This document shows, in pieces, positions 20,004 to 32,305 of a stretch of 41,415 nt of DNA. The notes under the pieces are model-generated. The model saw only the letters and a list, made by a program, of their open reading frames with translations, was not told the origin of the DNA and did not search any database. This DNA is from Psychrobacillus sp. BL-248-WT-3 (GTDB taxonomy: Bacteria > Bacillota > Bacilli > Bacillales_A > Planococcaceae): NCBI RefSeq assembly GCF_012843435.1, contig NZ_JABAFC010000033.1, forward strand, positions 1-41,415. Reading direction: 5' to 3'. Each line of letters opens with the position of its first letter. The first letter of the stretch is position 1. A program made the translations under genes and the position numbers.

Positions 20004-20112
20004 GTAGAAAAAGCAGCGACTCCTCGCCGCCAAGTGCGTGAGAGGGACTACAGGCTCGAGGCGTACCCCAAGAAAGCGGCCACCGTAGCGGAGAACTACT
20101 GAGTTCGAATTT
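20004..20112 (+). repeat. dispersed repeat, diverged copy C
   Basis: A GC-rich block, GTAGAAAAAGCAGCGACTCC ... CTCGAGGCGTACCCCA, AGAAAGCGGCCACCGTAGCG and GAGAACTAC, has the same architecture as copy A (A-rich entry, GCGACTCC, CCCCA-GAAAGCG, terminal complement) but much lower identity. It resembles another subtype of the Bacillaceae repeat. The 466-base gap 19896-20361 consists of a terminator, this repeat, a second terminator and the promoter of the next operon. Confidence 0.55.
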
Positions 20113-20270: not shown

Positions 20271-20335
20271 TTGATAAAAATACCCAGTTATACTATGATT
20301 ATCATAACAATATTATAGACAGGTAATATACATGT
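20271..20335 (+). promoter_or_regulatory. promoter and candidate operator 1 of the four-gene operon
   Basis: TTGATA (20271-20276), a 17-base spacer and TATGAT (20294-20299) form a good sigma-A promoter. Twenty bases after the -10 lies ACAGGTAATATACATGT (20319-20335), inside AGACAGGTAATATACATGTC with near-dyad ends. The motif is 15/17 identical to one placed in the same way before the permease genes at 28570. I infer that it is the operator of the GntR-type regulator encoded at 26248. Confidence 0.65.
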
Positions 20336-20361
20336 CTTTTTTATAGAGGAGTGACCGTTAA

Positions 20362-22032
20362 ATGAGGATGGCAAAAGTGGGGGTTCTTTTAGATAGAGAG
20401 GAAACCGAAAAACAGTGGAAGAAAGGGGAAAATGTATTTGACCGCTATTTGGAAGAGATTCTTGATCATGTAAGACTGCCTTATAAAAAAATAGATTCAA
20501 TCGAGGAGCTTGACTCCTTTGATTTAATGATTGTGGCTTGTTGCCCTAATACAGAAGCTGCTAAAACTAAAATTTTAGATTATGTAGAAAATGGAGGTAC
20601 AGTAATTTCATATGGCAATCTTCATTGTCTAAAAGAAAGGTTAGGCTTCAGTTCTCATTCTATTCCTGCTATAGGCTATGCAGAGCTTTCTTCTTTTCTT
20701 AACCAGTCAACGTCTCTTCGTTATTTACACGCGGATCCATGGGTCTATTTTGGAGATCAGTTAGAGATCCAACAATTTGGAGCGTTACTAGAGGGCAATG
20801 GAGATGCCCTGCTTCAAATTAAATATGGAAAAGGGACTATTGAACGCTGGGCCGTCTCTATTCCCCAAACAATTGTAGGCTTACAGCAAGGTACTGCTCC
20901 TATAACAGAAGACGGAGTTCCTGCTCCCGACGGAAGTGCAAACTTGGATGAGGAGATATTAAAGGCGGACGACGGCTTTATGCTCGATTGGGACCTAGAC
21001 CGAACGGTTACTGAAACAGGTATGCCTTATTTTCCCCATCCGTATGCTGATTTATGGAGAGAAGCGTTAATAGAGCATTTGGTAAAGTGTGCTCTCGATA
21101 AAAATCTTACGCTTCCTTTCATTGATTATTGGCCAGCAGGAGTAGAACATGTTGCTTTAATCTCTCATGATAGTGACTTGAACGTGGACGAATCAGCACA
21201 AATAACGTTAGATACCCTAAAGGAAGAAGGCGTGCAATCGACTTGGTGTATGATTGTGCCTGGATATAATCCTTCTATTTACAATCAAATCAAGGCAGAT
21301 GGGCATGAGCTAGCTCTACACTATAATGCATTAGAATCAGATAATGGAATTTGGTCAGAAAGTGCCTTTCATGCACAGCTTACTTGGTTGCAGCAGACAG
21401 TGGGTATAGAACAAGTGACGTCCAATAAAAATCACTATACGAGGTTTGAAGGCTGGGGAGAATTTTTTACTTGGTGTGAGAAATATGGAATACAGGCTGA
21501 TCAATCGAGAGGTCCTAGCAAAAGAGGAAACATAGGCTTCTTATTTGGCACGTGTCAGCCTTATTTCCCTATCGCTTGGGCCGATGAAAAAAATCGAATG
21601 TATGATGTGCTAGAGATTGGTTTTCTGACCCAAGACTTGAACCATAATACGTTAGCGGATGCGACGGTTATCGAACCATTTTTGGAAGGAGTCAAACGAG
21701 TGAATGGAGTTGCTCATTTCCTATTTCATCAAATACACATCTATCAGCAACCGCCAGTACGCGAAGCGATTATTCAACTAATCCGTATGGCAAGGCAGCA
21801 AGGCTTCTCGTTTTGGACTAGTAAGCAAATTAATGATTGGGAGAGAGCGAGACGCCAGGTTAAAATTATAGATGTATCTGAAGAGAATGGTGTGGTACTT
21901 AATGAAAATTCGATTGACGATAAGCTCGTTATTCTAATGCCTGTTTCAGAAGAAGGTGCACAAACGGTCAAACGTTTTGGGCTGAACTGTAAGATGGTTT
22001 CTGTTACGAATCACCTTTTAAAGGAAGCGTAA
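20362..22032 (+). CDS. GATase-like/NodB-like two-domain protein, cytoplasmic
   Basis: A 556-residue protein without signal peptide. Residues 1-175 resemble a class-I glutamine-amidotransferase-like (ThuA/beta-galactosidase-trimer type) fold: VGVLLDREE, DLMIVACCP, LDYVENGGTVISYG. From about residue 255 it resembles a polysaccharide-deacetylase (NodB/CE4) barrel: VALISHDSDLNVD (residues 264-276, with Asp/His suited to metal), QSTWCMIVPGY, and GHELALHYNA (314-323). The canonical CE4 H-S/T-x-x-H motif is not exact. Function could be deacylation of an imported sugar. First gene of a tight four-gene operon; GAGGAGTGA precedes the ATG. No close family recognised. Confidence 0.65.
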   Translation: MRMAKVGVLLDREETEKQWKKGENVFDRYLEEILDHVRLPYKKIDSIEELDSFDLMIVACCPNTEAAKTKILDYVENGGTVISYGNLHCLKERLGFSSHSIPAIGYAELSSFLNQSTSLRYLHADPWVYFGDQLEIQQFGALLEGNGDALLQIKYGKGTIERWAVSIPQTIVGLQQGTAPITEDGVPAPDGSANLDEEILKADDGFMLDWDLDRTVTETGMPYFPHPYADLWREALIEHLVKCALDKNLTLPFIDYWPAGVEHVALISHDSDLNVDESAQITLDTLKEEGVQSTWCMIVPGYNPSIYNQIKADGHELALHYNALESDNGIWSESAFHAQLTWLQQTVGIEQVTSNKNHYTRFEGWGEFFTWCEKYGIQADQSRGPSKRGNIGFLFGTCQPYFPIAWADEKNRMYDVLEIGFLTQDLNHNTLADATVIEPFLEGVKRVNGVAHFLFHQIHIYQQPPVREAIIQLIRMARQQGFSFWTSKQINDWERARRQVKIIDVSEENGVVLNENSIDDKLVILMPVSEEGAQTVKRFGLNCKMVSVTNHLLKEA

Positions 22033-22050
22033 AGTTGGAGGGTCTAAAAA

Positions 22051-23286
22051 ATGATAAACAATACTTTAGCGATTTTAGGTGGGCAAAAGGTTAAAACGAC
22101 TCCATTCGGAACTGGGAAACGCTTTGGTGCAGAGGAAGCAACGGAGCTACTAGGGGCACTAGAGCAAAATACACTCTTTTATCATTTCGGTAGCAAGGTT
22201 AAGAAGTTTTTAGCAGATTTTAATGATTTATATCATGTGAAGTATAGTGTGGCTACCTCATCAGGAACTGCTGCGCTGCATGTTGCTCTAGGAGCAGCGG
22301 GTGTTACAGTCGGTGACGAGGTCATAACTAGCCCAATTACAGACCAGGGTACTGTAATAGGTATCTTATATCAGAACGCCATTCCTATATTTGCCGATTT
22401 AGAGCCAAATAGCTATAACATGACTGCTGAAGCCATTGAAAAGGTAATCTCACCTAAAACAAAGGCGATTATTGTTGTTCATCTTGCTGGAAACCCATGC
22501 GACATGGATTCCATAATGGAACTGGCTAGAAAATACAATGTAAAAGTGATAGAGGATTGTGCCCAAAGCTATCTCACTACTTACAAAGGGCACTTAACTG
22601 GCACAATTGGTGATTATGGATGCTTTAGTACAAACGACTTTAAGCATATATCAACAGGCGATGGCGGGATTGTTACTGTAAATTCTGGAGATGAGGAAGA
22701 TTACTTTACCACTCATGCATTTGCAGATAAAAACTATAAAAGACATGACAAGGAAGTTGTAAAAGATATTCTCTATCTGGCACCTAACTATCGCATGACA
22801 GAACTTCAAGGTGCTGTTGGTATTGCTCAGTTAAAAAAACTGGAATGGATATGCACGCGAAGAAATGAGCTTGGAGAACGATTGAGTAGTGGATTACAGA
22901 ACGCTAAGGGTATACGGCCAATGAAAATAACAGCTGGCGGATGGTGCAGCTACTGGTTTTATATGCTAACGCTCGATTTAGATGTGTTAAGCTGCACCCG
23001 TGAAGAGTTCTCAGATGCACTTACAGCAGAGGGTATTCCTAATTCACCAGGGTACATTTCACAAGTGTTATATGCACAAAGCCTATTCCAACAAAAACAG
23101 GCATACTTAAATAGCGAATATCCATTTAGTCTAGGCGAATATAGTTATGAAGCTGGTAGCTGTCCAAATGCAGAAGAAATTTTGAAGACAGCGATACGGT
23201 TAGATATAAATGAGTTTTTTAGTGATCATGATATAGAGGATATGATTACTGCCTTAAACAAGGTAGCTGCCCATTATTGCGTCTAA
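22051..23286 (+). CDS. DegT/DnrJ/EryC1/StrS-family PLP aminotransferase
   Basis: A 411-residue fold-type I PLP protein. Recognisable parts are ATSSGTAALHVALGA (phosphate cup), GDEVITSPITDQGTVIGILY, the VVHLAGNPCDMDSIMELA block, VIEDCAQSYL (Asp that binds the pyridine nitrogen), and the Schiff-base Lys in CFSTNDFKHISTGDGG. Sugar aminotransferases of this family act on keto-sugars with glutamate as donor; a few have other activities. In a catabolic cluster it might remove or add an amino group on an unusual sugar. It lies 18 bases after the first gene and 12 before the next; GGAGG is its ribosome site. Confidence 0.88.
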   Translation: MINNTLAILGGQKVKTTPFGTGKRFGAEEATELLGALEQNTLFYHFGSKVKKFLADFNDLYHVKYSVATSSGTAALHVALGAAGVTVGDEVITSPITDQGTVIGILYQNAIPIFADLEPNSYNMTAEAIEKVISPKTKAIIVVHLAGNPCDMDSIMELARKYNVKVIEDCAQSYLTTYKGHLTGTIGDYGCFSTNDFKHISTGDGGIVTVNSGDEEDYFTTHAFADKNYKRHDKEVVKDILYLAPNYRMTELQGAVGIAQLKKLEWICTRRNELGERLSSGLQNAKGIRPMKITAGGWCSYWFYMLTLDLDVLSCTREEFSDALTAEGIPNSPGYISQVLYAQSLFQQKQAYLNSEYPFSLGEYSYEAGSCPNAEEILKTAIRLDINEFFSDHDIEDMITALNKVAAHYCV

Positions 23287-23298
23287 AGGAGAGCCTAT

Positions 23299-25098
23299 AT
23301 GTATAACGAACTTATAGATCATGGAACTCCGGTTGTCGCGGAGGAGGAGCGAACAGCTGCTATATGTACGAAGGAAGAAGAGAGTAGATTTGTAATTGCA
23401 GCCAAAGGATTTGTATTAATAGTCGATTTAGAAAAGGGAACAAGCAAGCAAGTTTCCTTTCCACTAGCAAATAAGGAATACCCTTTTGCCTCTTTTAGTA
23501 GTGGAGGCTTATTTTATACGGGGGCAGGTAAGATGCTGCTCGTGTTAGACCCTTTCAAAGAGTGCTTTGTGGATTATCAAGTAATAGAGAACGGTGAGGA
23601 AATAGTCGGTTTTAGCTTTGCAGAGGACAGTGAGGGAATGATTTATTTCACTACATACCCTCACTGTCACTTGCTTTCCTATGATAGCAAATCGCAGCAT
23701 GTTGCAGATTACGGCTCTATGCATGCCGAGGAAAAATATCCAGGAACAGTAGCTCTTGATACGCACGGATGGGCTTATATGGGAATTGGAACTGAGAAAA
23801 GAGATATAATAGCCTACCATTTAATAACTGGCCAGAAAAAGAGTTTGCTTTCCTCTCATCAAAGGCAGAAGGGAGCAGGCTATTTATATCTTGGAACCGA
23901 TGGTACTGTCTATGGACACATAGAGGCATCCGACTTAAAGAATGTGTTAACGGCCTCTCAGTGGCTAAAGTTTTCTCAGGGAGAATGTAATCCAGCAGCG
24001 GACGTTGCACCTTCTAGTTTTGTAGGAACAGGATTTCAAAAAGTCCACATTCCAGATGAATCAAATTATCAGATTGAGCACTACAGCTTATCTGAAGGGC
24101 TTGTTCAAATTAGTCATAAGGATAGTGGGATACAGAAAACGATTCATTTAGTATACCATTCGGAGGGAGCGGAGCTTTCAAGTCTTTTTCTCGCTCCAGA
24201 CGGATATATCTATGGTACGTCCATGCACCCTCTACAATTTTTTCGGTATGTTCCAACCAAAAACTCTCTTCAAAATTTTGGAGCACTAGAAAAGGGAGGG
24301 GGAGGAAATATTTGTGCCTATGCTTCCCATGAAAATCTGTTAGTGGGAGTGGCATACGCAGGTGGAAAGCTATATGTTCACGATTTAGATCAGCAATCTT
24401 CTATTCCTCGTTTAGTTTTAGAAGAGGATCAGATTCATCGACCTCGCTGTGCCCTTGCCTTGAGTGGAACGAAAGAAGTCATATGGGGTGGGTTTCCGGG
24501 CTATGGACTAGTTGGTGGTGCCTTGGCAATTTATAATATGGATACAGAAAAGCAGGTCGTAATACGCAATGAAGATATATTACCCTTTCACAGTACTATT
24601 TGTCTTAGTGAGCTCAGTAACGGAGATATTATAGGGGGCACAAGTGTAGAGGCACCTGGGGGAGCAGTATCAAAAGAACAGGATGCACGCTTATATGTGC
24701 TTGATCGAACAACCATGCAACTAAAATGCAGTTTCGTACCCTTTAAAGGGACACGAGAAATTATTGCTATTTATACAGATATGTATAATCGGGTGCATGG
24801 TGTTACTGGGCTAGGAATGTACTTTATATGGGATACTGAAATGAATACTATTCTTTCCGGAAAAGATCTATCCAGTTATGGGGAACCGATTCGTTCAGGC
24901 TTTGTTTATGACGAGCCTAATCACACGCTTTACTGTCTTATGTCAGACGCACTTATTGCGATTGATGTTAAGAAACCATGCCCCGAACCAATACTTAAAA
25001 AAGGGTTAGTAGCTAAAGCGAGCAGTGGTACTGTTCTATTTAATGGAAGAGTTTACTATGGTAGTGACAGTCATTTATATAGTGTAATTATAGAATGA
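23299..25098 (+). CDS. large cytoplasmic beta-propeller protein, unknown
   Basis: A 599-residue protein without signal peptide or membrane segment. About nine or ten blade-like repeats are visible, each with an aromatic/Gly-rich strand and a D-x-x-T/K turn: GMIYFTTYPHCHLLSYD, GWAYMGIGTEKRDIIAYHLI, GYIYGTSMHPLQFFRYVPT, NLLVGVAYAGGKLYVHDLD, GDIIGGTSVE...ARLYVLDRTT, NRVHGVTGLGMYFIWDTE, GRVYYGSDSHLYSVIIE. Propellers in sugar clusters include lyases such as oligogalacturonate lyase (PL22), but I see no signature that fixes an activity. AAAGGAG is the ribosome site. Its place between the aminotransferase and a hydrolase suggests an intracellular enzyme or scaffold for the same substrate. Confidence 0.7.
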   Translation: MYNELIDHGTPVVAEEERTAAICTKEEESRFVIAAKGFVLIVDLEKGTSKQVSFPLANKEYPFASFSSGGLFYTGAGKMLLVLDPFKECFVDYQVIENGEEIVGFSFAEDSEGMIYFTTYPHCHLLSYDSKSQHVADYGSMHAEEKYPGTVALDTHGWAYMGIGTEKRDIIAYHLITGQKKSLLSSHQRQKGAGYLYLGTDGTVYGHIEASDLKNVLTASQWLKFSQGECNPAADVAPSSFVGTGFQKVHIPDESNYQIEHYSLSEGLVQISHKDSGIQKTIHLVYHSEGAELSSLFLAPDGYIYGTSMHPLQFFRYVPTKNSLQNFGALEKGGGGNICAYASHENLLVGVAYAGGKLYVHDLDQQSSIPRLVLEEDQIHRPRCALALSGTKEVIWGGFPGYGLVGGALAIYNMDTEKQVVIRNEDILPFHSTICLSELSNGDIIGGTSVEAPGGAVSKEQDARLYVLDRTTMQLKCSFVPFKGTREIIAIYTDMYNRVHGVTGLGMYFIWDTEMNTILSGKDLSSYGEPIRSGFVYDEPNHTLYCLMSDALIAIDVKKPCPEPILKKGLVAKASSGTVLFNGRVYYGSDSHLYSVIIE

Positions 25099-25110
25099 TG
25101 GGGTGAAGAA

Positions 25111-26172
25111 ATGTATGCATTGTCCACTTTACATCAACAGGGTGCGCCTTCTCTTTTGCGATTAATGGAACGTAAAAGAGATTGGGAGAACAAAAGAGAT
25201 GCAATCGAAAAAACTTGGCTACAATGTATTGGTGGGCTCCCACCTTTAGTACAAATAAATTTTGATATAATCTCTTGGGAGTCGTATGAGGACTACTATT
25301 TATTTAAGATAAAGTACGACACTGTTTTCAACGATACGGTTCCAGCAAACCTGCTAATACCGAAAGCAAGTAACAGCAAAAAAGGTTCTACTAAAGACGA
25401 CGCCATAGAGGTTTTGAACTCTAGTCACAAACATTATCCCTCCGTTATTGCGCTTCATCCAACGAGCGACAACGGGAAGGATGATGTAAGTACAACAGAG
25501 GGACGGCAAAACAGACAATATGGACTTGAGCTTGCTAAGAGAGGCTATGTAGTACTTGCCCCGGATACGATAACAGCTGGAGAACGGGTGCGACAGGACG
25601 AAAAGCCTTTTCAGACAGCAAGCTTTGACGCCGCACATCCGAACTGGTCTGCAGTAGCCAAAATGATTGTGGATCATCAGCAAGGAATAAGTTTATTAGA
25701 GAGCTTAAATTGTGTAGACAGCGATAAAATAGGGTTAATCGGACACTCACTTGGAGGCTACAACGGTTACTTTTTAGCTGGCGTAGACCGTAGAATAAAG
25801 GCAGTAGTATGTAGTTGTGGATTTTCAACATTTGCAGGAGATCCGGAGTTACATCGTTGGGGAAAACGAGATTGGTTTAGTCATATCCCTCAGTTAAGTA
25901 ACTACATAAATGATGATAAGGTTCCTTTTGAATTTACTGAAATAGCTGCATTAGTAGCACCTACTCCTTTTTTTCTATGGATGGGGCAAAATGATTCTAT
26001 ATTCCCCCATTGGAAACCAGCTGCTGAAGGACTTTTTGAACTAAATTCATTGTATAATTGGATGGATTGTACAGAAAAAATCCAAACATTAATAGGGAAC
26101 TCGGGTCATGACTTTCCCTATGAAATTAGGCAAGCAGCTTATTTATTTTTAGATAAATGGTTAATGAAATAA
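25111..26172 (+). CDS. alpha/beta hydrolase of the dienelactone hydrolase/acetyl-xylan esterase type
   Basis: A 353-residue cytoplasmic hydrolase. A helical N-terminal part (residues 1-60) precedes the core. The nucleophile is in LIGHSLGGYNGYFLAG (about residue 213), the Asp candidate is in FLWMGQNDSIFP, and the His is in NSGHDFPYE. ALHPTSDNGKDD is the oxyanion strand and YVVLAPDTITAGER the next. Related bacterial proteins remove acetyl or other acyl groups from sugars, which would fit the deacetylase-like first gene. Last gene of the four-gene operon, 12 bases after the propeller gene. No obvious terminator follows it. Confidence 0.8.
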   Translation: MYALSTLHQQGAPSLLRLMERKRDWENKRDAIEKTWLQCIGGLPPLVQINFDIISWESYEDYYLFKIKYDTVFNDTVPANLLIPKASNSKKGSTKDDAIEVLNSSHKHYPSVIALHPTSDNGKDDVSTTEGRQNRQYGLELAKRGYVVLAPDTITAGERVRQDEKPFQTASFDAAHPNWSAVAKMIVDHQQGISLLESLNCVDSDKIGLIGHSLGGYNGYFLAGVDRRIKAVVCSCGFSTFAGDPELHRWGKRDWFSHIPQLSNYINDDKVPFEFTEIAALVAPTPFFLWMGQNDSIFPHWKPAAEGLFELNSLYNWMDCTEKIQTLIGNSGHDFPYEIRQAAYLFLDKWLMK

Positions 26173-26183
26173 AACTACCAACC

Positions 26184-26232
26184 TTGCACATGTTATGATA
26201 GATTCATATCTTTATATAGCGCCAATTTTGGC
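26184..26232 (+). promoter_or_regulatory. possible promoter and palindrome of the regulator gene
   Basis: TTGCAC at 26184 and TATCTT at 26207 are spaced by 17 bases. The perfect dyad GCCAATTTTGGC at 26221-26232 lies between this weak promoter and the ribosome site of the regulator gene. It differs from the ACAGGT motif found at the two operons, so it may bind another protein or be incidental. Confidence 0.35.
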
Positions 26233-26247
26233 AGGGGAGTTGTATGC

Positions 26248-27654
26248 ATGATAAAACGACAAAGTGACTTTGAAAGTCGTTATAACAAGTTTATCCATGA
26301 GGTAAAACAAGAGATTATTACAGGGAAGATTAAACCTGGGGAATTTATATTGCCAGAAAATACATTAAGTAAAGAATATGCGCTTAGTCGAGTTTCCATA
26401 AGAAAAGCGTTAGCAGAGCTAGTGGAAGAAGGGCTTATAGAAAAAATAGCAGGAAAGGGAAACCGGGTAACCTTGCCTGACGACACACAAAAGCAAACTT
26501 TAACGCTCGGTTGGTTTTCTAACTCCTATGAGATTGAGATTATTAATCTAATCATTCAGAGATTTGAACAATTGAATCCTTATATTAAGATAAATCTTGA
26601 AATTTTACCAAATGATCAGTACGTTTATAACCTTATGCAGTCATTTAAACACGGTTCTGGCCCGGACGTTTTTATAGTTTCAGACTATCATTATAGACAG
26701 CTGATGGAGAAGGATCACTTAGATCTTATAGAACCCTATTTACCAGCGCATATAGATCCGATGAAGGATAGTTATCACCAAGTTTTTCAAATGTTTTCAA
26801 CGGAAAACAAAATGCATGTAACCCCGTTTGTTTTCTCGCCAGTAATGATTTGCTACAACAAACGGATATTTGAAAAAGCAGGCGTTCTAAACGATTTTCA
26901 TATAAAAGATTGGAATGATCTGTTAGAGGTGTCCCGAAAAACAACAAATGATCTAAATGAGGATAATTTAGTGAATGAGTATGGTTTTTGTTTTTCGTCC
27001 TCGACTAACAGATGGCCAGTTTTTCTATTACAAAATAAAGGAAGCTTTAAGGATTCCACAGGAACTAAGCCGGTGATGAACAGTAAGGAAAATATAGAAG
27101 CGTTAGAGTTTTGTGTTGATTTAATGTACAAACATCAGGTATCCCCTATTTTTTCACATGGTAGCAACGACCTCGCTGAGAACCTGTTTATGCGAGAAGG
27201 GGCAGCGATGATCTTAACTACCTATTATTTTATGAATGAATTCAGAGACCATAAGATACAATGGGATGTAATTCCACCGCCTAAAAATAAAGATGCAGGC
27301 ACACTTTTACTTGGAGGGGCACTTGGTGTCCATGTAGATAGTCCAAATAAGCCAGCCGCACATGCACTGATCGATTTTATGGTTAGTGAAGAGGCGCAAA
27401 TATTGATAAAGAAAAATGGATGTACGATTCCAATGCTGCGAAAGGTTGCAGAAGACAATAGACTCCTCCAGCCTGATATTCATCCAGAGCATTACAATGC
27501 CTTTATTGAAACGATGCCAGTCGCTAAAACGATCAAGGATTTACACCTAACGATTGAAGAATTTGAGTTAATTGAACGAGAAATGCATTTTTTATGGGCA
27601 AATATGGAGAAACCAGAGGAAACATGCCAAAGAATACAACAGCTTTTAGAATAA
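26248..27654 (+). CDS. GntR DNA-binding domain fused to a solute-binding protein
   Basis: A 468-residue protein. Residues about 8-75 are a GntR winged helix: GKIKPGEFILPENTLSKEYA, SRVSIRKALAELVEEGLIEK, IAGKGNRVTLP. Residues about 85-468 are a full extracellular-type (family 1, cluster B) solute-binding protein: LTLGWFSNSYEIEIINLIIQ, PDVFIVSDYHY, MLTPF-like HVTPFVFSPVMICYNKRIFE, and GGALGVHVDSPNKPAAHALI. It has no signal peptide or lipobox, so the binding domain must act in the cytoplasm as the effector sensor, as the LacI-type sensor does in GntR/LacI hybrids. AGGGGAG lies eight bases before the ATG. It lies between the enzyme operon and the importer and is the likely regulator of both. Confidence 0.9.
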   Translation: MIKRQSDFESRYNKFIHEVKQEIITGKIKPGEFILPENTLSKEYALSRVSIRKALAELVEEGLIEKIAGKGNRVTLPDDTQKQTLTLGWFSNSYEIEIINLIIQRFEQLNPYIKINLEILPNDQYVYNLMQSFKHGSGPDVFIVSDYHYRQLMEKDHLDLIEPYLPAHIDPMKDSYHQVFQMFSTENKMHVTPFVFSPVMICYNKRIFEKAGVLNDFHIKDWNDLLEVSRKTTNDLNEDNLVNEYGFCFSSSTNRWPVFLLQNKGSFKDSTGTKPVMNSKENIEALEFCVDLMYKHQVSPIFSHGSNDLAENLFMREGAAMILTTYYFMNEFRDHKIQWDVIPPPKNKDAGTLLLGGALGVHVDSPNKPAAHALIDFMVSEEAQILIKKNGCTIPMLRKVAEDNRLLQPDIHPEHYNAFIETMPVAKTIKDLHLTIEEFELIEREMHFLWANMEKPEETCQRIQQLLE

Positions 27655-27868
27655 GATTAAGTAGTTTTAAAGGTAAATAATCATTTATTGGTATAAGAGA
27701 TGAATTGAAATTCTAAGCGACTAGCCTGAGAATATGAATTCTATTGTATAAAAGTATGATTCTCTAATTGAATTCATAAAGTAATAAGAAATAAATAAGA
27801 GATTGTTGAAGATTTTAGATGGAGAAGATTGAATCTTTAAAAGGTTAGATAAACAAGAGGTGAATGGT

Positions 27869-28510
27869 ATGGAGCTGACAGGCTGGAGAGGAACGCTATA
27901 TCGATATATGGACTGGGGAATGCGGCTTGCCTATATAAATATCCTTTGGTTAGGCGGAATCATCTTAGGTCTAGGCGTTGTAGGTTTTTTCCCAGCTACA
28001 GTTGCTATGCTATCGGTTATACGCAAATGGAGCTATGGTGAAGAGGATATAAAAACCTTTCGTTACTTCAATGATATATATAGAAAAGAATTATTAAAAT
28101 CTAATATCTATGGTTATATTTGGCTGATTATAGGCGTTATTCTTTTCGTAGATTTGCAGTTTTTTCGTAGCCTGCCAAATATAGCAGCCTTAATAGCATC
28201 ATTTTTCTTCTTTATATTAGGTGTAATTTATTTGATCGCTTTATTGTATGCTTTTCCACTTTATGTCGGTTATCAGATGAAGCTTTCCCAGTATTTTAAG
28301 GATTGTATTTATATCGTTTTGGCCCATCCTTTGTTTGCGGTGTTCATGGTTTTAGGTTTTTATTTCCCCTATTATTTAGTCATGAAAATTCCTGGACTCA
28401 TACCTTTTTATAGCGGAAGTTTAATAGGCGTTACTTTAATATTTCTATCCAATAAACTGTTTAAAATTATTGAATCAAAACAGCAAGAGCCCATTGAATA
28501 TAAGAAATAA
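27869..28510 (+). CDS. DUF624 (YesL-like) membrane protein
   Basis: A 213-residue protein with about five or six membrane segments and the N-terminal signature LYRYMDWGMRLAYINILWLG, then GVVGFFPATVAMLSVIRKWS, of DUF624/YesL. In Bacillus and Paenibacillus this family is regularly encoded with LplB/YtcP-type oligosaccharide permeases (as in the yes rhamnogalacturonan locus); its role is not known. The ATG at 27869 follows AAGAGGTG by six bases; the ORF-extending GTG at 27860 overlaps that site. It is separated from the regulator by 214 bases in which I see nothing clear. Confidence 0.85.
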   Translation: MELTGWRGTLYRYMDWGMRLAYINILWLGGIILGLGVVGFFPATVAMLSVIRKWSYGEEDIKTFRYFNDIYRKELLKSNIYGYIWLIIGVILFVDLQFFRSLPNIAALIASFFFFILGVIYLIALLYAFPLYVGYQMKLSQYFKDCIYIVLAHPLFAVFMVLGFYFPYYLVMKIPGLIPFYSGSLIGVTLIFLSNKLFKIIESKQQEPIEYKK

Positions 28511-28527
28511 ATAATTTTAGAAAAATA

Positions 28528-28586
28528 TTGAATAAATGTAAAAATTAAACTAAAATTGGTAATATAAATACAGGTATTATACAGGT
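28528..28586 (+). promoter_or_regulatory. promoter and candidate operator 2, before the permease genes
   Basis: TTGAAT (28528-28533), 17 bases and TAAAAT (28551-28556) give a promoter. Fourteen bases after the -10 lies ACAGGTATTATACAGGT (28570-28586), 15/17 identical to the motif at 20319 and including a direct repeat of ATACAGGTA. The same promoter-then-motif layout at both operons suggests one repressor for both. Confidence 0.65.
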
Positions 28587-28628
28587 AAATAAATTGGCAA
28601 AAAGCTTCAAGGAAAGGGGAAATAAGTT

Positions 28629-29612
28629 ATTGTTACTCAAAATAAAGACGCTGAGACAGTTGTTCCGACATTAGCTCACGTCAAGGAAAAACCAAAGCCC
28701 CCAAATAAAAATTCTATTAAGCAAAAACTGTGGCGGGATCGGTATCTATTGCTACTTCTTTTGCCAGGTGCCCTTTACTTTTTAATCTATCGATATATTC
28801 CGATGATTGGATTATTGTTAGCATTTAAAGATTATAGTCCATTCCAAGGATTTCTTAAGAGCCCTTGGGTTGGATTAAAACATTTTCAATCCATTTTTGA
28901 AGACTCGGAGGTTATACAAGTAATTTGGAATACACTTCAGATTTCCATGTTACAAATTATTTTTGCATTTCCTATTTCCATTATTTTAGCACTTATGCTG
29001 AATGAGTTAAGAAACCAAATGTATAAACGATTTCTGCAGTCTGTTGTATATATGCCTCACTTTCTTTCTTGGGTTGTGGTAGTTGGAATAACTGTTATCT
29101 TTCTACGAAGTGAAGGTTTAATAAATAACTTTCTTGGATCTTTTCTAGATATGAATCCTATACCTTTTCTAACGGATCCGGCACTGTTTAAACCGATTGT
29201 TGTATTGCAGGTCATCTGGAAGGAGTCTGGATGGGGTACTATATTGTTTCTAGCTGCCTTATCCGGCATCAGCCCTCATCTATATGAGGCAGCTGTCATG
29301 GATGGTGCGAGTCGCATGAGACAAATTTGGCATATAACATTGCCTGCATTAAAAAGTACGATTGTTATTTTATTAATCCTTCGTTTAGGAAACGTGATGG
29401 ATAGTGGTTTTGAACAAATCTTTCTAATGCTAAATCCTTTTAATATGGAATCGGGTAATGTTCTCGATACGTATGTTTATTTTAAAGGAATACAGCAGGC
29501 GAATTTTAGTTTTGCAACCGCTGTTGGTCTATTTAAAGGAATAATTGGCTTGATTTTAGTGGTTCTTGCAAATAGGCTTGCTAAACGATTTGGTGAGGAA
29601 GGTCTATATTGA
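28629..29612 (+). CDS. ABC sugar permease, LplB-type, probable ATT start
   Basis: A permease of 327 residues with six membrane spans. The first spans YLLLLLLPGALYFLIYRY-like sequence and is followed by MIGLLLAFKDYSPFQG, the conserved LplB block. The EAA loop is EAAVMDGASRMRQIWHITLP. The only ATG/GTG/TTG in frame before the first span is a TTG at 28749 inside that span with no ribosome site. AAAGGGGA at 28613-28620 is eight bases before an in-frame ATT at 28629, giving a hydrophilic N-terminus ending KQKLWRDRY, normal for the family. It pairs with the next permease; no ATPase is encoded nearby. Confidence 0.85.
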   Translation: MVTQNKDAETVVPTLAHVKEKPKPPNKNSIKQKLWRDRYLLLLLLPGALYFLIYRYIPMIGLLLAFKDYSPFQGFLKSPWVGLKHFQSIFEDSEVIQVIWNTLQISMLQIIFAFPISIILALMLNELRNQMYKRFLQSVVYMPHFLSWVVVVGITVIFLRSEGLINNFLGSFLDMNPIPFLTDPALFKPIVVLQVIWKESGWGTILFLAALSGISPHLYEAAVMDGASRMRQIWHITLPALKSTIVILLILRLGNVMDSGFEQIFLMLNPFNMESGNVLDTYVYFKGIQQANFSFATAVGLFKGIIGLILVVLANRLAKRFGEEGLY

Positions 29613-29684
29613 CCATATGAAAGATTGAAAGATTCAAGATGACATGTCTTTATGGGAGACTCTCGTCTGGAAGGGGGTATGTTC

Positions 29685-30557
29685 ATGTTTAGGTCTTCAG
29701 GGGAAAAAGTAATGGATTTTTTCAATGGTACAGTTCTCTTGATTATAGCAGCAGCCATGCTTTTTCCTTTTCTATATATTTTCTCGGTTTCGTTTTCTAG
29801 TGTTAGTGATGTATTAAATAGTGATTTCTTGTTATGGCCAAAGGAATGGGTGACTGATGCTTATACGTATATATTAGGCTCTGATCAATTTATTCGTTCG
29901 TTGTTCGTAACGGTCTATATTACTGTCGTTGGAACATTAGTAAATCTATTTTTTACTACGACGATGGCTTACTCGCTAACTAGAAATATTTTAGGGCAAC
30001 GAACAATTCTTTTTCTAGTATTGTTTACGATGCTATTTTCAGCAGGGATGATCCCTACCTATATTATTGTAAAGGAAACGGGATTATTAAATTCCTTATG
30101 GGCTCTTATAATTCCTGTGGCGATTAGTCCATTTAATCTGATCATTATTACACAGTTTTTTAAAGGAATTCCAGAGGAACTGACAGAGGCGGCATTAATA
30201 GACGGTGCAAACGATATCCAAATATTTACTCGCATTATTTTACCTTTGTCGAAGCCAGCCTTGGCAGCATTCGGTTTATTTTACGCAGTAGGTCATTGGA
30301 ACAGTTATTTCTCAGGGGTTCTATATTTAAATGATCCTGCAAAATGGCCGATTCAAGTAATTTTAAGGCAAATTGTAATAGTCAATGAGCCTAATGCGGC
30401 ACTAGGGGGGCATGCAGCAATGCTGGAAAATCTTCCACCTCCTGAAACCGTTCAGATGGCTGCTATATTGTTAGCTACTTTACCGATTTTAATCGTCTAT
30501 CCATTCTTACAAAAACACTTTGCTAAAGGAGTGATGCTTGGATCTGTTAAGGGGTGA
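29685..30557 (+). CDS. ABC sugar permease, YtcP/LplC-type
   Basis: A 290-residue inner-membrane permease with six spans: NGTVLLIIAAAMLFPFLYIF is the first, followed by SVSFSSVSDVLNSDFLLWPK, typical of YtcP/LplC. The EAA loop reads EAALIDGANDIQIFTRIILP. The C-terminus ends FLQKHFAKGVMLGSVKG, the standard ending of the family. The ATG at 29685 follows GGAAGGGGGT; an ATG 33 bases earlier is open but less well placed. It should form a heterodimer with the upstream permease and be energised by a multitask ATPase such as MsmX encoded elsewhere. Confidence 0.92.
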   Translation: MFRSSGEKVMDFFNGTVLLIIAAAMLFPFLYIFSVSFSSVSDVLNSDFLLWPKEWVTDAYTYILGSDQFIRSLFVTVYITVVGTLVNLFFTTTMAYSLTRNILGQRTILFLVLFTMLFSAGMIPTYIIVKETGLLNSLWALIIPVAISPFNLIIITQFFKGIPEELTEAALIDGANDIQIFTRIILPLSKPALAAFGLFYAVGHWNSYFSGVLYLNDPAKWPIQVILRQIVIVNEPNAALGGHAAMLENLPPPETVQMAAILLATLPILIVYPFLQKHFAKGVMLGSVKG

Positions 30558-30622
30558 CTTTCTATCGCAATGGACATCGAGAATTTATTTACACCAGACA
30601 AAATAGTAATGGAGGGGTTAAT

Positions 30623-32248
30623 GTGAGAAGTAAGCAGTGGTTTTATGGTTTTCTAATTCTTATCATTGGTCTAATTTTAGTAGCTTGTACCGATGAAAAT
30701 GCCCAAACTGAACCAGCGAAAGAGCCGGAAAAAGAGACAAATAGTGCAGAACCAAACAAAGAGGAACCGGCAGTAGATCCGTTTGATCATACAGAAAAGT
30801 ACACGATTACGGGAATGACATTTCGTTTCGGTGATCCACCACCACTGAAAAGCCCGGGTCTTGATATGATAAATGAACGCTTTAACGTGGACTATAAGCC
30901 GGAAATTATTCCTCAGGGAGACTATATTGAAAAGTCGTCTGCTATAGTTGCTTCTGGATCTATGCCAGACCTAATCGGATTTCCAGGAACAGACACTCGT
31001 TTTTATCAATGGGCAGAACAGGGAGCATTCCTGCCTTTAGATGATTATCTTAAGCATTATGACACACTAGGGAAAATCCCAGAATACGTTTACAACTCTT
31101 TTAAAGTGAACGGGAAGATCTATGGTATTCCACGTTACTCTCAACCGTACCCTGTAACACCAGTTATTCGTAAGGATTGGTTAGATAAGCTTGGTTTAGA
31201 AGTTCCTACTTCTTATGAGGAACTGGAGAAGGTAGCGATAGCTTTTACGAAGGAAGATCCAGATGGTAATGGAAAAGATGATACTTACGGCGTTGCAATT
31301 GGTGAAAATATTAACCCGAACTTTAATATGGGAACTTACTGGGACTTTAACGCTTGGTATCACCAAGATAAAGAAGGAAATTACATCCCAGGAATTATTT
31401 CTGACGGTAGAAAAGACTTGATCCAATTTTTTGCTAACCTTTATAAAGAAGGAGCGATGACGAAGGATTTTGCAGTTCTTGATTGGGCTAGCACGAACAC
31501 GGAGTTTTACTCTGGAAAAGCTGGAATCTTTGTTGGGGGAGTTTCAGGTATGTCTGAAGCCTATTTCGAAGGTCTTTTAGCAGCAAATCCAGATGCACAT
31601 TTAATAGCAATACCTCCTTTTGAGGCTCCAGATAAATCCAAGGGCTTCACTATTGGATCTGGTTATTCAGGTATTTTAGCTTTAAATGCTAACATGGCTG
31701 GAGACGAAGGTAAGATTTTCCGTGCTTTAGAAATGGTTGACTTTGGTAAAACATATTACCCAAGGGATACAAAAAATCCGGATAACGCTGATTTTGATTT
31801 CTATTTAGGTGGAGAAGGAAAAGGGTATAACATGGAAAATGGGCAGGCAGTTCAATTGCCAAACTTCTCATCTGATGGACTTTCACCTTCGACTTACTTC
31901 TTAGACAATCGTGAGCAAGTACCAGAAGATGCAAATATCACATATGCAGATGATTACAAAATGCCAGAAATGAAGGAAATGGTTCAATCTCTTCAGGAAA
32001 TGTTTGAATCTAACAAGCTTTATGTAGATCCTTCATACGGAGTAATGTCTCCAACAAATCAGGAGAAAGGCACTGATTTAACACAATTCATCATGAACGA
32101 GCAAGCAAAAATGATTGCTGGCCAAAGACCAATCTCTGAATGGGATAGCTTGGTTGAGGAATACATGAAACGTGGAGGAGAACAAATTATTAAGGAAACG
32201 AACGAAGGAATTAAGGCAAAGGGTTACACAGAAAGAGAATGGAAATAA
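30623..32248 (+). CDS. ABC oligosaccharide-binding lipoprotein, LplA/YtcQ-type
   Basis: A 541-residue solute-binding lipoprotein. The signal peptide VRSKQWFYGFLILIIGLILV ends in lipobox LVAC (Cys23), followed by a Glu/Pro/Lys linker. The large mature domain (family-1 cluster type, about 500 residues) has GSMPDLIGFPGTDTRFYQWA, LPLDDYLKHYDTLGKIPEYV, the calcium-binding-like loop DPDGNGKDDTYG, and GKAGIFVGGVSG. The GTG at 30623 follows GGAGGGG; the earlier open codons encode no signal peptide. It captures the substrate outside the membrane for the two permeases. Size and linker resemble binding proteins for complex oligosaccharides. Confidence 0.92.
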   Translation: MRSKQWFYGFLILIIGLILVACTDENAQTEPAKEPEKETNSAEPNKEEPAVDPFDHTEKYTITGMTFRFGDPPPLKSPGLDMINERFNVDYKPEIIPQGDYIEKSSAIVASGSMPDLIGFPGTDTRFYQWAEQGAFLPLDDYLKHYDTLGKIPEYVYNSFKVNGKIYGIPRYSQPYPVTPVIRKDWLDKLGLEVPTSYEELEKVAIAFTKEDPDGNGKDDTYGVAIGENINPNFNMGTYWDFNAWYHQDKEGNYIPGIISDGRKDLIQFFANLYKEGAMTKDFAVLDWASTNTEFYSGKAGIFVGGVSGMSEAYFEGLLAANPDAHLIAIPPFEAPDKSKGFTIGSGYSGILALNANMAGDEGKIFRALEMVDFGKTYYPRDTKNPDNADFDFYLGGEGKGYNMENGQAVQLPNFSSDGLSPSTYFLDNREQVPEDANITYADDYKMPEMKEMVQSLQEMFESNKLYVDPSYGVMSPTNQEKGTDLTQFIMNEQAKMIAGQRPISEWDSLVEEYMKRGGEQIIKETNEGIKAKGYTEREWK

Positions 32249-32259
32249 TATAAAAAGAG

Positions 32260-32305
32260 AGCAGCTCCAAAAGTCATTTAAAGACTTTGGTGCTGCTTTT
32301 TTTTG
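32260..32305 (+). terminator. terminator of the transporter operon
   Basis: AGCAGCTCCAAAAGTC pairs with GACTTTGGTGCTGCT across ATTTAAA, followed by eight T. Confidence 0.9.

Follow-up and report, generated by a model that had tools for sequence, protein, structure and literature searches.

The window analysed here, a stretch of 41,415 nucleotides from Psychrobacillus sp. BL-248-WT-3 (contig NZ_JABAFC010000033.1), carries a cluster of nine genes on the forward strand. In it a NodB-like protein, a DegT-family aminotransferase (DegT1), a double beta-propeller, a DLH-type hydrolase, a GntR-SBP fusion and a DUF624 protein are encoded together with an ABC importer. We suggest, with a confidence a little above even, that the cluster is a self-contained regulon for the breakdown of a glycan in which uronic acid and N-acylated amino sugar both occur. 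Glycan-utilisation loci as such are a known kind; this one stands apart in its NodB-DegT pair, in a fusion regulator accompanied by an operator and in the lack of the classical enzymes.

Conservation and operator of the gene cluster

All nine reading frames are open at the positions given by a first-pass annotation made from the sequence, and Pfam agrees with the families it had named, the NodB assignment being weak by sequence and firm by fold. We compared 19 Psychrobacillus genomes, among them that of the window (G000). The conserved co-occurrence on which the first-pass annotation had made its reading depend was found: ten of the genomes carry the gene set (propeller search, identity at least 54%), their gene order is the same as far as the fetched stretches extend, some ends being cut off, and the array is also found in other genera. 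Because of this recurrence the array is not due to chance. The propeller search gave weak partial matches only in the remainder of the order's 261 genomes. A published operon with the same gene set was not found in open-access PMC papers.

A 19-bp candidate operator, TACATGTNNNATACATGTA, precedes both the NodB-like gene and the permease operon. Operator 1 (GACAGGTAATATACATGTC, 20318..20336) is an exact-core match 25 bases before the NodB-like gene, and operator 2 (TACAGGTATTATACAGGTA, 28569..28587) lies before the LplB-type gene. The exact core, ACAKGTNNNATACAKGT, occurs at 23 sites in the 19 genomes, all within the cluster and placed before NodB, before LplB or, in four genomes, before an adjacent gene for BIGP, a secreted CBM4_9/propeller protein; no BIGP gene adjoins the cluster in the window. 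The core is present in 10/10 carriers and 0/9 non-carriers, and a control search with the reversed core gave 0 sites in the same genomes. We also analysed 80 loci (L049-L128), the best 80 of 201 NodB relatives in named genomes. Allowing up to two mismatches, 93 operator sites were found in 51 of these loci, the nearest gene being a labelled cluster gene for 83 of them, and the operator recurs ahead of the same genes in other Bacillota.

The presumed regulator of the operator is the GntR-SBP fusion (26248..27654), a single protein with GntR (1.2e-11) and SBP_bac_1 (5.4e-30) domains. Where a GntR-SBP of at least 45% identity is encoded, an intergenic operator is present in 23/23 loci, and with remoter GntR-SBP proteins in 14/19. 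We infer that GntR-SBP binds the 19-bp candidate operator. We read the regulon as self-regulated; the regulon as such is well supported, and common control of the oligosaccharide importer and the enzymes is supported. A rough test found 42 GntR-SBP fusions in 40 of the 80 loci; regulators that sense through an ABC binding-protein domain seem to be common beside these importers.

A putative promoter of the enzyme operon, TTGATA-17-TATGAT (20271..20299), matches the consensus at 10/12 positions. It is weak alone, as a consensus search gave 39 sites in the region against 40.7 expected; by eye, the promoter block is also found in the closest relative. Just upstream, 91 bp at 20013-20103 have 64% G+C in surroundings of about 30% G+C and may be a dispersed repeat.

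The NodB-like and DegT proteins

The NodB-like protein (20362..22032) consists of an N-terminal GATase/GH42-trimerisation-like part and a CE4/NodB domain. Its match to Polysacc_deac_1 falls below the Pfam cut-off (E 0.0017, 18.8 bits; cut-off 23.1), while fold comparison places it firmly in the NodB fold, in agreement with the deacetylase-type fold read earlier. D270, D272, H315, H320, H358, H452 and H456 are invariant in 59 alignment rows. In a weak alignment to 5zns the first CE4 metal His is kept, and a usual metal-binding His appears to be missing. The protein may be another hydrolase or a sugar binder on the NodB fold instead of an N-deacetylase. We regard this as doubtful, though to be taken seriously, since the base and acid positions of CE4 keep Asp and His, the architecture is PelA-like and amino-sugar genes surround some NodB copies. 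According to the available part of PMC10864358, PelA and NDST1 (9cgy, 8ccy) have in common with it a Rossmann-like N-terminal part joined to a NodB-type domain; the window protein differs from them in being cytoplasmic and part of an import regulon. Tandem NodB-like duplicates, each adjoining a remote-class DegT (see below), are found in L082 (9992-13440), L111 (9989-13418) and L126 (10001-13415), stretches that have no DegT1.

DegT1 (22051..23286) belongs to the DegT/DnrJ/EryC1/StrS family (Pfam DegT 1.2e-81, 275.1 bits, cut-off 19.8). K198, invariant in nine rows, is the presumed pyridoxal phosphate lysine as judged from the motif. The protein stays below the NCBIfam curated cut-offs for PseC (193.7/423.5 bits), LegC (190.2/420) and PRK11658 of the ArnB type (148.3/631). 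PseC, LegC and perosamine enzymes, all biosynthetic, are its nearest named families, and DegT1 might accordingly serve the synthesis of an amino sugar that ends up in a signal or a surface polymer. We consider such a biosynthetic pair quite unlikely, as the operator of DegT1 is common to the importer genes and, in some relatives, to the lyase described below, and no glycosyltransferase or nucleotide-sugar gene is among the nine genes.

The pairing of NodB and DegT is well supported. By identity to the window DegT, the DegT genes that neighbour NodB form two classes, 26 at 29-33% and 53 at 64-84% with none between, and we call the close class DegT1. It is present in 53 of the 80 NodB loci and lies no more than two genes away from 49 of 82 NodB genes. 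In another family, probably Paenibacillaceae, both genes were found in 15 of 245 genomes, NodB alone in one, DegT1 alone in none and neither gene in 229 (thresholds 1e-90 and 1e-130). The pair also occurs on a contig of an Anaerolineae metagenome-assembled genome (MAG), where DegT1 is 67% and NodB 49% identical; provided that the bin is clean, this suggests that the pair has moved as a unit. A remote DegT is found in 8 of the 27 NodB loci lacking DegT1, and the DegT1 miss in L113 may be an artefact of the open reading frame caller. No description of a joint role of NodB-like and DegT proteins was found in open-access PMC papers.

Importer, lyase and the glycan

The importer is encoded by an LplB-type ABC permease gene (28749..29612, start codon uncertain), a YtcP-type ABC permease gene (29652..30557), both BPD_transp_1 by Pfam, and a binding lipoprotein gene starting at 30554 or 30623 and ending at 32248 (SBP_bac_1 4.2e-16). 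The solved relatives of the lipoprotein include alginate binders; they comprise, among others, AlgQ2 (3.9e-18), an ABC binding protein (5g5z, 7.5e-16), AlgQ1 (4.8e-15) and Smon0123 (5gub, 9.8e-15), and its sequence would thus place the importer with the AlgQ/LplA-type uronate-oligosaccharide importers. Smon0123 binds an unsaturated chondroitin disaccharide, as given in the available part of PMC5430744.

Between GntR-SBP and DUF624, six of the ten carriers have a gene for a heparinase II/III-type protein of about 757 aa (PF07940 4.2e-18, DUF4962 1.7e-7). By genus comparison its place in the window is 27655..27859, where there is no such gene. A C-terminal remnant is retained in G126; G000, G135 and G131 have no lyase gene at the cluster position, and a PF07940 search of the window genome (99.86% complete) gave no match. 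The lyase of locus L050, aligned to GAGase II (8khv), keeps the catalytic Asn192, Tyr246 and His401 as well as His403 (numbered by hand as chain index + 22), a remote relationship with E ~1e-12. Asn, Tyr and His are the catalytic residues that the available part of PMC12088678 names for the PL35 glycosaminoglycan (GAG) lyases, or GAGases. At the position of Asn191 the relatives' lyase has His, which GAGase III and alginate lyases have there too. Such a PL35-like set is seen in the sequences of the relatives' lyase only and is absent here. In L066 (9097-13107) and L098 (2807-8584), NodB and DegT1 are adjoined by large proteins of heparinase II/III type that also bear CBM4_9 and FIMAH or SLH domains; these proteins may be extracellular equivalents of the lyase that is missing here.

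One relative, L072, has consecutive genes for lyase, DUF624, importer, GH88 (2.7e-17), KduI (445.7 bits, cut-off 250), KduD (378, cut-off 369) and NodB; operator sites precede those for lyase, LplB and KduI. The relatives' lyase, the AlgQ/Smon0123-like binding protein and these L072 enzymes together point to a uronate substrate. An amino-sugar substrate is pointed to by genes at some of the 80 NodB loci, namely GH123 (4), GH20C (6), NagA-like (8) and NagB-like (7).

The GAG cluster of Streptobacillus moniliformis, as far as the available part of PMC5430744 describes it, is alike in its AlgQ-type binding protein, two aldouronate-type permeases and heparinase II/III-family lyase, and its KduI, KduD and GH88 are matched by L072. 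Among the genes listed for it as Smon0117-0128 there is no deacetylase, aminotransferase, propeller or GntR-SBP, and the main text of that paper does not use the word "deacetylase". Unlike this GAG cluster, the window genome has neither GH88 nor KduI: GH88 was found in 0/19 Psychrobacillus genomes and the KduI/IolB family in 1/19, not that of the window (control searches gave matches in 3 and 5 of 14; DhuI and DhuD were not searched). As defined by GH88 and KduI, the canonical unsaturated-uronate pathway is not found in the window genome, and lyase products may need another route. DhuI and DhuD are described as alternative enzymes in the available part of PMC12838403.

The cluster could also be a uronate-glycan uptake locus of known kind, for alginate or glycosaminoglycan, in which the classical lyase route is the core and NodB and DegT are accessory. 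The lyase of the six carriers, the type of the binding protein and L072 favour such a locus. We nevertheless find it rather improbable given the lack of GH88 and near lack of KduI/IolB in the genus, and since GH88, KduI and KduD occur together in 1/80 loci and the lyase label is found in 18/80 compared with 53/80 for DegT1.

The genes are under purifying selection. Between the window and G126, dN/dS is 0.016-0.147 for the eight genes with finite dS, LplB being saturated; as dS is near saturation, these ratios are approximate. Against G135, a genome of the window's own species, dN/dS is 0.135-0.39, with few changes. That the cluster is a decaying remnant in the window species, as the missing lyase, the remnant in the near relative G126 and the lack of an adjacent BIGP gene might suggest, is highly unlikely in view of the open frames, the low ratios against G126 and the retention of both operators.

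Proposed pathway and accompanying genes

In the catabolic regulon that we favour, the AlgQ-like lipoprotein would capture oligosaccharides and LplB/YtcP would import them. Cytoplasmic GntR-SBP would sense the imported sugar and leave the two 19-bp operators. The NodB-like protein would then strip the N-acyl group in the cytoplasm, and DegT1 would remove the exposed amine by transamination, giving a keto sugar on which a Gfo/Idh-type reductase would act. Ester groups may be taken off by the DLH-type enzyme, and the double propeller may bind or cleave the oligosaccharide. In relatives the heparinase II/III-type lyase would cut at the uronate; the window genome is without it and has kept the other genes under selection. 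N-deacylation followed by amine loss is the likeliest chemistry, if unproven. DegT and Gfo/Idh enzymes are known to act on a sugar without nucleotide in kanosamine synthesis (NtdA and NtdC). That pathway runs in the biosynthetic direction, and NtdA (4k2b) is only remotely similar to DegT1.

Genes for Nramp, epimerase-like, DHDPS-like, GGDEF_GdpP-like and Gfo/Idh proteins adjoin the cluster in G139, L053 and L059. The same operon is found away from the cluster in G135 and in the window genome (L163 7144-12694, that is G000:C24:15143-20693). Its epimerase-like gene is present in 10/10 carriers and 1/9 other genomes (Fisher 1.2e-4), and the operon, which could supply reductase and aldolase steps, has none of the 23 exact operator cores. 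Tentatively, and with a confidence well short of even, we speculate that a cytoplasmic PelA/NDST-like N-deacetylase and a DegT enzyme running backward form a new catabolic module, the acyl group being removed first and the nitrogen next from an amino sugar of the imported oligosaccharide, probably a C3- or C4-amino sugar. Together with the epimerase/DHDPS/Gfo-Idh operon they would replace the GH88/KduI-type steps of uronate-glycan breakdown.

Several points weigh against the catabolic reading. In the weak alignment to 5zns the second CE4 metal-binding His aligns with Leu, which also sets the NodB-like protein apart from PelA and NDST1, and Ser stands at the metal Asp position with Asp next to it; activity as a deacetylase is unproven. 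Most DegT enzymes of known function make nucleotide-linked amino sugars, such builders are among the relatives of DegT1, and we infer its catabolic use. Pairing is looser by locus than by genome: in 27/80 NodB loci the stretch does not contain DegT1 (near full length or above 20 kb in 19 cases; some of the 27 lie on short contigs), and the 245 genomes give 28 NodB places against 20 DegT1 places. Four of the ten carriers have no intact lyase. The link between GntR-SBP and operator is incomplete because 11 of 38 loci without GntR-SBP in the stretch still have an intergenic operator. The highest within-species dN/dS, 0.39 on few changes, is that of the propeller.

DegT enzymes are known mainly as amino-sugar builders. 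If the catabolic reading is true, a DegT enzyme is tied to a deacetylase-like protein across Bacillota and an Anaerolineae MAG, which would bear on the bacterial breakdown of unusual amino sugars from cell-wall or matrix polymers. The operator offers a way to track down the inducing glycan and further pathway genes, and the NodB-DegT pair a source of new glycan-processing enzymes.

The propeller protein (23299..25098) is cytoplasmic as judged by eye from the lack of a signal, and has no Pfam match and no useful sequence relative in the PDB. Its predicted model (mean pLDDT 90.7) has 51 strands and seems to form a pair of propellers, each with roughly seven blades, not the ten-bladed propeller proposed earlier; superpositions by Foldseek over the whole chain are loose (TM 0.29-0.42). 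The DLH-type alpha/beta hydrolase (25111..26172; Pfam DLH 1.6e-7) was named correctly. Its S213, D295 and H333, invariant in nine rows, fit a Ser-Asp-His triad, which we assign from the GHSLGG motif. The first-pass interpretation stands in part: common control of importer and enzymes, co-occurrence, the deacetylase-type fold and the triad-like residues bear it out. It had no view of the operator, the lyase missing here, secreted BIGP, the tight NodB-DegT linkage or the clues to uronate. DUF624 (27860..28510; Pfam 6.7e-26) is a membrane protein.

A second sugar locus of the window genome, G000:C13 (L129 14023-17103, L130 1-10443), encodes a secreted 1026-aa CBM4_9/propeller protein beside an LplB/YtcP-type importer. 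It also has GNAT-, FAD- and Gfo/Idh-like genes and, further on, NagA/NagB-like genes, all named by eye.
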